Assembly (NCBI RefSeq): GCF_965363235.1
Contig: NC_134846.1
Location: 30,576,218-30,640,217, forward strand
Source of the DNA: Mytilus galloprovincialis
Lineage: Eukaryota; Mollusca; Bivalvia; Mytilida; Mytilidae
Direction: 5' to 3'
DNA length: 64,000 nucleotides
This document shows, piece after piece, positions 23,581 to 35,679 of the stretch. The notes beneath the pieces are model-generated. The model saw nothing but the letters and a program-made list of their open reading frames with translations. It did no database searches and was not told where the DNA came from. The first letter of the stretch is position 1; each line of letters starts with the position of its first letter. The position numbers and the translations under genes were made by a program.

Positions 23581-26500
23581 ATGGAGCATATTGATGGAAA
23601 CTGGTTTCGAGAGGAAAACGACAAGTGGAGTGGCTATAGCATTGGTATAGAAATAGAGAGAATTCTATACTTTGAAAAAACAGAATTTCAAGAAATACTT
23701 GTTATTAAAAGGTAAGTCAAAGGAATGAACACTACTACTCACGTTTTCTCATAATCTATAACTAAAATGTTTTTAATAGCACATACGATCACACCCGGTT
23801 TTTGGTGAGGTTCGTTTTGCTTCTATATTATATTTTCTATACTGTTTTTATTTTTATGTGTCATTAGTTTATCTTCTTTTTTGCCATGCCGTAGTCAAAT
23901 AGAAATGATTTTGCAAATTGGTTTCATTGAAAACGAGACATCTTTCCACCAAAATGAAAGATAAAAAGGGACCCCAATAGAAATAAATCGCATGTCTTTC
24001 ATGGGCAATCCTGATTATTTATCAGCAACTGTTGAAAGATTTTATGATTTTAGTATGTTTACATGTCTGATATTGTTTAATACTACTTTTGTAATGTTTT
24101 ATGTTGAAATTTCATCTAGTAAATATATCTATATAGATGTAAACTTCTATACTTATAGGTTAACGTTTGATCTTTAACAAATGATAAAATCAACACCGTA
24201 TAGTTATCTATGACAAGCCCTGAATTGAAAAACAAAGTTATTTTACCATATTGTATTACAAAAAAAAACAGATGTCAAATAATTTACAACTAATAAATTA
24301 TAATGAGTTATATACTGAAGTTTCGGACACACAAAAACTATTATTGATTTACGAAATCTGATCTTTGGTACAGTACTGTTGTCTTAATCTTTAGTTACAC
24401 TAAAAACTGTCATAAAGGTTGGTAAATATGGAAATGTTATAGCTGGTCCAAAAGTCTTTCATAAACATGTGGGTTTTTTGGCTTTACAGAATTATCAGTG
24501 GAAACGTCCCTTTTTGAAAAAAAAACGCCAATATTGATGAACATGCTAAATAGATTTAAATTGTTAAGGACTGGCATCAAAACTACATATGAAATCAACA
24601 AGCCAAGATAGGTACGTACTAGTAGTTTCGGATATAAACATTCCATCGAACAATTTGTTATCTTAAATTTATTGGACATTCTGAAAACATGTTCATACTA
24701 AAATTTACGCCGTAATGAGCTTGTGTATTATTGTTTTTTTCTCGGAAGAATTATCAACTTAAATCTTTAAAAATATTCTCCAGACGATAAAGAATTAGGA
24801 GAAATCCCGGAATATTCAAAGTAAGGAGATTAATGGCAGAAAATATAAGAATTGAAAAATGGCCTAAAAGTTATTTTAAGAAAGCCTTTTTTCTATATTT
24901 GCAGTAAATCATTCGGAAATGTCCTTGTGTTAGATGGTGTTATATCGGCTGCTGAACGGGATGAGTTTGCCTATTTGGAAATGATGGCTCACTTACCCTT
25001 AAACTGTCATCCAAAACCAGAAAAGGTATCATCCTTATTTTTTTTAGAAATTTATGTACACATTTATCAATTTTTTCAAGGACTAAAGGAGGCAACCGGT
25101 GGTATTGAAATGTAAGTATCTTTAGGAATATATAAACAGAGACCTATTTCTTTCCTACAACTTCAATTCACAAGTATATACAAATAAACTCATTTTAGAT
25201 ACCAGTATTAAATTAGGAAATTGCATCAGACGTACGTTGCATCTACAAAAGACTATTTAGAAAGTCTAAAAGACAAAAAAGTAAAAGGTTGGAGAGCATT
25301 GGGGACCAAAAATTCCTAAAGTTTATTTGATATACTAGTACGTAAACTTTGATATTAAGAACCCCATTTGTAAACCATGCTAGCAGGATATGAAAAAAGG
25401 AATATTGGGGTGCTACAATATACAGAATATTCAACAATGATTGGCAAGTAAAATTAAGGAAAGGGAAACATTATTTTGAATTAAAAACTATTCAAATTAA
25501 ACCCCTCTGTGAATGCAATCTATTGAATTTATTCGATGATAATCTTTAATATCATTTATAAAAAAATGAAGACAAAACGTATAAAAATGCATTGCGCCCG
25601 AAGCGCTTTTCTGGATTTGCCTTCATCAGGAACGCTCAGAGCCAAACATTTAAAATCCTAAGATGTATAAGTACCGAAACCGTGGAAGAGCTGTATGTCA
25701 AAAATACCTAAAATAAATAGCCAAATTCATCTAAAGCTAACTTTGCCTGAGGGAGTTGAAACCTTAGTTTCTTAATAATTTCAAAATTTATAAACGGACA
25801 ATTTTAGTAAAGTTTGTTAAATCATGTCAGTACCGAAATAAATTATTGAAAAGATCATCCGCTCAACTTCGATACCAAAATATGTTACTCAGTAGAGTGT
25901 ATAAGAAGTACCCACTTTCAAATAATTTTCAACTTTCAGCTCATTTAAAGGTTTGATGGTTGCACTACCGATGAATATGATAAACGTTTGGTTGTTCTGT
26001 ATCATCTTCTATTTGTTTTATAGGTTTTGGTCGTTGGTGCTGGTGGTGGTGGAGTTGTAAAAGAGGTTCTTAAGCACAAATCTGTACGGAAAGTTGTCGC
26101 TTGTGAAATTGATAAGGTACTTATACTTTATAGATTCAATCTAGTCGTCTCGTACAAATGTTTGCATAGCTATTTATAAAACCAAGTATAATCCTCCATT
26201 TTCTACATCTAAAAATACCTGTGCCAGGTCGGGAGTATGACAGTGGTTTTTAAATCAATTGATTTTGCACATTGCTTATGGATTTTCCGTTTTGAATTTT
26301 CCTTGGGGTTTATCAATTTTTTAATCCATCTCTTGCTAACAACAAGTGCGTCTGGCATACAGATTATAATAATTGAAAGCGAGCGTCTGTCCACCAGAGT
26401 ATATGGCCAAGTATAAGTACGTCATCAACAATGAGAAAGCCAATACCATACAGTAAGCTATAAAAGGCCCAAACATGAAAAATATAAACAATTCAAACGA

Positions 26501-35500: not shown

Positions 35501-35679
35501 TTATAAACCAACGGAACGAATGAAAGAAAATAAAACCAGACATATTCCAGACCTACTAAACCATACTTCTACTTTTTCCAAGTGTATTAATGTATTGCAT
35601 TCTATGAACCTGATATCTATTAATTTTGATATTATTCTTACTTTAGGAGTTGTATCACGATGCAGTGATAGTACAATAG
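23581..35679 (+). CDS. Spermidine-synthase-like aminopropyltransferase paralogue, eight exons, altered active site
   Basis: Exons are 23581-23711, 24905-25025, 26024-26116, 27675-27825, 32993-33076, 33798-33943, 34308-34430 and 35647-35679. They join in phase to 293 residues, close to the 302 of human SRM. The N-terminal beta domain ([38 protein letters not shown]) and the Rossmann domain ([53 protein letters not shown]) align end to end with SRM. By eye against human SRM recalled from memory, Gln49, Tyr79, Glu124 and Asp173 are kept. Gln80 is Leu, Asp104 of GGGDGG is Gly, Asp155 is Asn, Asp176 of DSSDP is Phe and Tyr241 is Val. The frame and all splice sites are intact, so it is probably expressed. 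It may be a pseudoenzyme or use another amine. An in-frame ATG at 23515 could extend the start. Confidence 0.9.
23780..24335 (+). repeat. Penelope-like tail remnant plus direct repeat copy 2, in intron 1 of the SRM-like gene
   Basis: The part 23780-23905 (CGGTTTTTGGTGAGGTTCGT, TTTTTTGCCATGCCGTAGTC) is a decayed copy of the tail at 18770-18900. The part 24190-24335 is the partner of 18985-19130. About 280 bases between them are not in the first copy. Confidence 0.6.
25150..25450 (-). repeat. Dispersed repeat, family B, diverged
   Basis: AAACTCATTTTAGATACCAG, TGCATCAGACGTACGTTGCA, AAAAGACTATT and GGAGAGCATTGGGGACCAAA parallel the minus-strand family B copy at 27.9 kb. It lies in intron 2. Confidence 0.6.
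25565..25945. repeat. Dispersed repeat, family B variant with GGATTTGCCTTCATCAGG
   Basis: The blocks GGATTTGCCTTCATCAGGAA, CGCTCAGAGCCAAACA, ATAAATAGCCAAATTCATCT and TGAGGGAGTTGAAACCTTAG recur in the same order at 27.44-27.66 kb, and partly at 34.7 kb. Confidence 0.75.
26410..26760 (-). repeat. Dispersed repeat, family A, diverged
   Basis: AACAATGAGAAAGCCAATAC, AGCTATAAAAGGCCC and AACAATTCAAACGAG are decayed forms of family A blocks, seen in order on the minus strand in intron 3. Confidence 0.55.
27440..27665. repeat. Dispersed repeat, family B variant, second copy
   Basis: CGGATTTACCTTCATCAGGA, ACGCTCAAAGTCGG, AAATTAGCCAAATCCATCTG and TGAGGGAGTCGACACCTTAG match the order at 25.57 kb. The copy ends just before the exon 4 acceptor of the SRM-like gene. 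Confidence 0.7.
27920..28145 (-). repeat. Dispersed repeat, family B, minus strand
   Basis: ACTCATCATAGATACCAGGA, CGCCAGACACGCGTTTCGTA, AAAGACTCATCAGTGACC and GAAGAGCATTGATGACCAAA are the complements of the 37.8-kb landmarks. It lies in intron 4. Confidence 0.8.
28202..32814. mobile_element. 4.6-kb noncoding element with about 90-bp terminal inverted repeats and TA target sites
   Basis: The left end CAGCCCGTAACAGAGTAGTG (28202) is matched by the right end, which reads CAGCCCGTAACACAGAAGTG on the minus strand (ending at 32814). The match continues through TTTCTTTACCGTC and ACGTTATCGACAAACTTA for about 90 bases. Both ends are flanked by TA, as expected of a Tc1/mariner-type or similar TA duplication. 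The interior has no ORF over about 100 codons and no transposase motif. It has internal direct repeats (28636-28679 and 28799-28841; about 29180-29240 and 30870-30930). It fills almost all of intron 4 of the SRM-like gene. It is a large nonautonomous DNA element. Confidence 0.8.
34735..34870. repeat. Family B variant fragment
   Basis: TGCATCCGAAGATCCGGAAT and TCAGGAACGCTCAACAAAGA echo the copies at 25.57 and 27.44 kb. It lies in intron 7. Confidence 0.45.

Follow-up and report, generated by a model that had tools for sequence, protein, structure and literature searches.

The genome of the mussel Mytilus galloprovincialis (assembly GCF_965363235.1) contains a paralogue of spermidine synthase (SRM) that has an unbroken eight-exon reading frame and a rebuilt active site. 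The gene, designated W, is located in a 64,000-nucleotide stretch of contig NC_134846.1 (positions 30,576,218 to 30,640,217 of the forward strand), which is referred to as the window; three other loci of the family in the genome are designated A, B, and C. Judged from the alignment of the proteins, the nucleoside cradle of W is largely kept and its amine side is largely lost. It is tentatively proposed that W is an intact paralogue that has lost aminopropyl transfer and serves as a retargeted transferase, which still binds an adenosyl ligand. A non-catalytic role as the partner of another family member is practically level with this proposal, and the sequence does not separate the two. If real, W would represent one of two things: an animal counterpart of the plant conversion of spermidine synthase into a methyltransferase, known from nicotine and tropane alkaloids, or an aminopropyltransferase partner that is itself dead. 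To our knowledge, no such dead partner has been described.

The exons of W (23581-35679, forward strand) join to 882 nt, which encode 293 amino acids and a stop codon, and all seven introns have a GT donor and an AG acceptor. The eight exons in phase and the alignment with SRM that were claimed in the original prediction are both borne out. The best solved relative of W is human SRM (2o05/3rw9, E 1.6e-89), to which the homology is continuous over chain residues 20-300, and the Pfam domains Spermine_synth (178.7 bits) and Spermine_synt_N (63.8 bits) both score above their cut-offs. Two AATAAA motifs downstream of the stop codon are weak candidates for poly(A) signals, and an ATTAAA at 36056 is nearer to the stop.

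The genome comprises 331 contigs with a total of 1.385 Gb. A family search of it returned nine matching exons, which are distributed over four loci; the count covers the best candidates, which are all that the search tool scores, and not more diverged copies. When W was used as the query, 27 matches were obtained, all of them within the same four loci. A second, canonical SRM gene, as envisaged in the original prediction, is present at locus A on C13. The eight-exon plan with identical phases is common to W, A, and B, and to the seven exons found at C; the last short exon of C was not found in the 11 kb downstream. Because the plan and the phases recur in A, B, and C, the gene model of W is more than a product of chance, and since W carries introns, it is an intron-bearing duplicate and not a retrocopy. 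Locus C spans about 45 kb. The third intron of C (C5:60034500 region) opens with GC (GCAAGT) instead of GT. Inside an intron of A, directly 3' of exon 6 (approximately C13:73214514-73214560), there is a partial tandem copy coding for PSGQIGFIMCSKN.

A maximum likelihood protein tree was calculated from seven sequences: human SRM, the worm and K. lactis proteins, A, B, C, and W. A groups with human SRM (support 88/88, not starred) and is regarded as the mussel orthologue of SRM. The other three mussel proteins, B, C, and W, cluster together with support of 100/100, without a resolved inner order, and their end branches have lengths of 0.44 for W, 0.44 for B, and 0.17 for C. Identity to human SRM is 71.5% for A, 54.1% for C, 48.6% for B, and 47.0% for W (133/283), and W and C share 169 of 283 residues (59.7%).

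The active-site residues of W were read from the alignment of the seven sequences and are numbered according to human SRM; the equivalences between species rest on this alignment and its reading. The original prediction described four rebuilt motifs, all of which are seen in the alignment: GGGDGG is changed to GAGGGG, DSSDPMG to DSCFE-G, GDG to ANG, and TYPSG to TVNGG. The DSSDP loop is one codon short, as exon 4 has 151 nt in W and 154 nt at the three other loci. Two additional changes, Q70S and Q80L, lie outside these motifs. W retains W28, Q49, Y79, E124, I125, G156, D173, S174, P180, L184, Q206, and E208. Thus, W resembles human SRM (EC 2.5.1.16, 2o05) in its full-length two-domain organization, the same N-terminal domain, and residues D173, Y79, E124, and Q49, and differs from it by D104G, Q80L, Q70S, D176F, Y241V, D155N, and the loop that is one residue shorter.

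The functions assigned to these positions in other enzymes indicate which side of the site was affected. In the Arabidopsis enzyme, Q107, D131, and D201, equivalent to human Q80, D104, and D173, bind the terminal amine, and D182 and G183, equivalent to D155 and G156, bind adenine (PMC6514230). The ribose is held by E124 and Q49, D173 is the catalytic base, and Y79 and Y241 position the amine (PMC12812037), while the diamine is anchored by the equivalent of D176 (PMC10146546). At Q80, D104, and D173, which contact the aminopropyl amine of decarboxylated S-adenosylmethionine (AdoMet), W has Leu, Gly, and Asp. D104 is an Asp in the human, worm, and K. lactis proteins and in A, B, and C, and the base D173 is an Asp in all seven sequences. 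The putrescine anchors D176 and Y241 are Phe and Val in W; all six other sequences have Asp and Tyr. Q70, a residue adjacent to the site of the transfer chemistry, is changed as well (Q70S). Putrescine is also positioned by Y79, D173, and the carbonyl of S174, which are kept, as are the neighbouring E208, Q206, and W28. Among the adenosyl contacts Q49, E124, I125, D155, G156, P180, and L184, six of the seven are as in the human enzyme. The exception is D155N, and the Asn could still accept a hydrogen bond from N6 of adenine. The earlier claim that residues holding putrescine or the adenosyl group had been lost therefore stands for the diamine side (D176 and Y241) and is overstated for the adenosyl group.

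The closest paralogues provide a comparison. C, which has the same exon plan as W in its seven exons, keeps the canonical Q70, Q80, D104, D155, D176, and Y241 as well as D173. B keeps D104, D155, D173, D176, and Y241, and carries the changes Q80H, W28Y, S174P, P180I, Q206E, and E208K. A role of W28 in the exclusion of longer amines has been described (PMC12812037), so that B, with W28Y, may use a longer amine as its substrate and could, for example, be the mussel's own spermine or thermospermine synthase.

W differs at 15 of the 75 columns that are invariant in the six other sequences. The corresponding leave-one-out counts are 12/72 for B, 9/69 for K. lactis, 6/68 for worm, 4/64 for A, 3/63 for C, where one of the three changes is the missing last exon, and 1/61 for human SRM. 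Invariant amine-side columns are changed in four of six cases, in comparison with 11 of 69 among the remaining columns (Fisher p 0.013), and invariant ligand positions taken together in five of 11 (p 0.037); these tests are descriptive because the sets of sites were picked after the alignment had been viewed.

Plant putrescine N-methyltransferase (PMT) provides a precedent for such changes. It is an SRM duplicate in which both donor-side positions that are changed in W, Q80 and D104, are altered, with the adenosyl cradle kept; the residues at these positions are Thr and Ile in Datura PMT (PMC3725402), and Leu and Gly in W, and the changes are not taken to be of common descent. In Datura SPDS1, the mutation D103I alone made spermidine synthase activity undetectable and gave trace methyl transfer, which was raised about tenfold by the addition of Q79T, and Ile at the D104 equivalent of the T. 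maritima enzyme cut kcat about 2000-fold (PMC3725402). These published mutants make it unlikely that W synthesizes spermidine efficiently. W may instead bind an adenosyl ligand for which the contacts to the aminopropyl amine are dispensable. The ligand would most likely be AdoMet itself, because the loss of D104 removes a charge that is assumed to repel the AdoMet carboxylate. The retained D173 would be used for the transfer of a group, probably methyl, to an acceptor other than putrescine. PMT uses putrescine and has the D176 equivalent conserved, whereas W has Phe at this position; the equivalent of D176 has been called totally conserved in spermidine synthases and PMTs (PMC3725402). Since the equivalents of D176 and Y241 matter for the methylation of putrescine (PMC3725402), W could not hold putrescine as its acceptor in the way that these enzymes do. 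W would then have been retargeted at two positions that are changed in PMT, with a different acceptor pocket. The broader proposition that an AdoMet-dependent (methyl) transferase arose from spermidine synthase independently in animals, with the diamine site replaced by another, more hydrophobic acceptor site, is doubtful.

Profile searches provide a lead in the same direction. W scores 24.2 bits with the Pfam family Methyltransf_11 (cut-off 21.2 bits), far below its own Spermine_synth score, and no other paralogue exceeds this cut-off; B scores 15.0, and A and C are not listed at E 0.05. At the same time, the Spermine_synth score of W is the lowest among the four paralogues, the others scoring 203.6-257.8. 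Canonical residues were restored in W in silico, which resulted in Methyltransf_11 scores of 22.4 for motif I, 25.5 for GDG, 19.9 for the loop, and 19.3 for all three motifs. The gain of W thus comes mainly from the shortened loop, with a small contribution from motif I and none from the change of GDG. The transfer of motif I and ANG of W into A, B, and C left all three under the cut-off (14.7, 16.1, and not listed). In a control, C was randomized ten times at the sites that distinguish it from W, and none of the resulting sequences matched Methyltransf_11 at E 0.1. The score is regarded as a lead only, and the plant precedent is stronger.

Several observations weigh against the retargeting of W to a new transfer reaction. 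Changes on the ligand side are also found in B (W28Y, P180I, Q206E, and E208K) and are therefore not unique to W. Only the sites Q80 and D104 are shared with the plant switch, with differing letters, and W keeps V107, the site of the largest gain in plants, where Val was changed to Thr. In Arabidopsis, a change at the Q80 site on top of D131I gave no gain in methyl transfer (100 versus 119 pkat/mg), and D131I kept trace spermidine synthase activity (29 versus 20,722 pkat/mg); furthermore, the equivalents of D176 and Y241 mattered even in the plant methyltransferase mutants (PMC3725402). The acceptor of W must differ from the plant one, and none can be named. The gain with the methyltransferase profiles is modest and inconsistent: restoration of the canonical loop alone brings W under the Methyltransf_11 cut-off, Methyltransf_31 scores the canonical A (24.5) above W (23.6), and the remaining methyltransferase matches of W are all under cut-off. 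The randomized controls are also harsh, as their Spermine_synth scores of 115-142 are far under the 178.7 of W.

It is possible, to practically the same degree, that W resembles a prozyme, which would bind an adenosyl ligand without catalysis and tune polyamine synthesis as a heterodimer with A, B, or C. Three paralogues in which no breaks were found would be available as partners. Trypanosomatids are reported to have a dead paralogue of deoxyhypusine synthase, in parallel with the case of their AdoMet decarboxylase. The trypanosome AdoMet decarboxylase prozyme is a catalytically dead, activating paralogue within the polyamine pathway (PMC5201418); it belongs to another enzyme family, and both the partner and the deadness of W are hypothetical. 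Most characterized aminopropyltransferases are dimeric, with an interface formed by N-terminal strands and C-terminal helices (PMC6514230, PMC10146546). W and C are identical at 45 of 62 positions in the N-terminal domain, 97 of 172 in the core, and 26 of 46 in the C-terminal segment, so that the putative interface segments are kept at least as well as the core. However, a dead partner would not require D173, Y79, E208, Q206, and S174, all of which are kept in W.

The constraint on W was estimated with a branch-wise codon model of 283 codons from the four mussel paralogues on three topologies; the estimate is weakened by the unresolved order among W, B, and C. The omega of the W branch is 0.13-0.14 on the three topologies, with free-branch dN of 0.17-0.19 and dS of about 1.4. 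An omega of 1 is disfavoured (2dlnL 6.8, 5.0, and 5.8), the data are compatible with values up to about 0.5-0.7, and the nominal excess over the remaining branches (0.04) is not significant (2dlnL 2.0-2.8). Since synonymous sites are near saturation, the test is a modest one; the dS estimates of 19-24 for the A branch and the extreme omegas of inner branches are not meaningful. The W branch has probably been under purifying constraint. In 600 simulated runs of free decay, about 15 changes at the 75 invariant codons required about 0.1 substitutions per site, at which the probability of no stop codon is 0.058 and that of all 28 splice bases being intact is 0.052, with indels uncounted. W is unlikely to be a long-dead pseudogene. 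The ten randomized copies of C score far below W with Spermine_synth, which indicates that the replacements in W are far from random.

Consequently, the part of the original prediction that explained W by selection and not decay is favoured over omega = 1 and long free decay, while very young decay is still compatible with the data. A young pseudogene, newly free of constraint and with its frame and splice sites still whole, would be consistent with the single sequence of W, which could include a short neutral tail, and with the nominally elevated omega. The improbability of reaching the observed changes by free decay with the frame and splice sites whole, the poor fit of omega = 1 over the whole branch, and the high Spermine_synth score relative to the randomized copies render this explanation unlikely.

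Slightly less credible still is the explanation that W remains an aminopropyltransferase with another acceptor or relaxed binding of the donor. D173 and Y79 are present in W, as is the greater part of the adenosyl cradle, and trace activity was left in Arabidopsis D131I (PMC3725402). W also passes the cut-off of the NCBI equivalog model TIGR00417 (speE), with 297.8 bits against 249.55; A scores 364.0, C without its last exon 342.8, and B 289.7. On the other side stand the mutants with Ile at the D104 equivalent, with the roughly 2000-fold loss in T. maritima and no detectable activity in Datura (PMC3725402), and the additional loss of Q80, which leaves one of the three donor amine contacts. 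Because W exceeds the SpeE cut-off, an automatic pipeline using that model would call it a spermidine synthase, and yet, from its residues, W very probably does something other than spermidine synthesis. A curated equivalog model would thus assign the name spermidine synthase to a gene whose product lacks D104, D176, and Y241, which may distort counts of pathway genes in mussel genomes.

An artefact of assembly or splicing, in which the eight exons do not belong to one gene, is very improbable: intron 4 of W is long (5167 bp), but A, B, and C have the same exon order and phases with nearly the same lengths, and the homology to human SRM is unbroken.

In the open-access literature, mostly titles and abstracts, on molluscan and animal SRM duplicates, inactive aminopropyltransferases, pseudoenzymes, Mytilus, bivalve norspermidine, N-methylputrescine of animals, and the expansion of bivalve gene families, no such paralogue is reported among the papers listed, and the main text of a study of eukaryotic spermine synthases (PMC12803844) contains no words beginning with mollus, bivalve, or Mytilus. 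A spermidine synthase gene of oyster rises under low salinity, the copy not being specified (PMC3595286).

Table 1. Features of the window and loci of the spermidine synthase family in the genome. Positions without a contig label are those of the window; exon lengths are in nt.
Feature	Position	Strand	Remarks
W exon 1	23581..23711	+	ATG start; N-terminal hairpin; W28 equivalent kept; 131 nt also in A and C
W exon 2	24905..25025	+	Y79 kept; Q70S, Q80L
W exon 3	26024..26116	+	Motif I is GAGGGG (D104G, G102A); E124, I125 kept
W exon 4	27675..27825	+	ANG (D155N); D173, S174 kept; gate-keeping loop reads DSCFE and lacks one codon that A, B, and C have
W exon 5	32993..33076	+	P180, L184, Q206 kept
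W exon 6	33798..33943	+	E208 kept; Y241V, I246F
W exon 7	34308..34430	+	C-terminal segment; dimerization region in known structures (PMC10146546, PMC6514230)
W exon 8	35647..35679	+	Final 10 codons and TAG; last exon of B likewise 33 nt
Two AATAAA poly(A)-like signals	36748..36778	+	About 1.1 kb 3' of W stop; weak
Locus W	C9		Window gene; exons 131/121/93/151/84/146/123/33
Locus A	C13:73.204-73.216 Mb		Canonical SRM; exons 131/121/93/154/84/146/123/39
Locus B	C13:26308485-26315701		Divergent SRM paralogue; exons 137/121/93/154/84/146/123/33
Locus C	C5:59.996-60.041 Mb	-	Last short exon not found; exons 131/121/93/154/87/146/123 (seven exons found)
F5/8 type C (discoidin-like lectin) exon	12431-12718	-	
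LINE-type element pieces	36799-39206	+	Downstream of W; endonuclease PF03372 over cut-off, reverse transcriptase PF00078 below cut-off
DPW-bearing open frames	52953-53363, 53575-54000	-	Same strand as ENTH exon
ENTH-domain exon of epsin-like gene	62051-62602	-	180.5 bits

Viral contigs were scanned once for relatives of W, which gave one pattern match and no relative. A spermine synthase identity was considered for W and rejected, as the match to human 3c6k (9e-16) compares with 1.6e-89 for SRM. A spermine synthase gene was not found in the genome with a piece of human SMS as the query, in an exon-by-exon search that had no positive control; the sole match of the piece is an exon of A (E 0.855). 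The SpmSyn_N family has no match in the genome, but none in any control genome either. Loss of spermine synthase from the genome is possible. AdoMet decarboxylase is represented by one locus, with three exon matches on C10. In keeping with a genome of Mytilus or a close relative, there is elsewhere an open frame of 770 residues that encodes the Mytilus foot-protein-1 repeat, with eight matches, seven of them at 84-97% identity.

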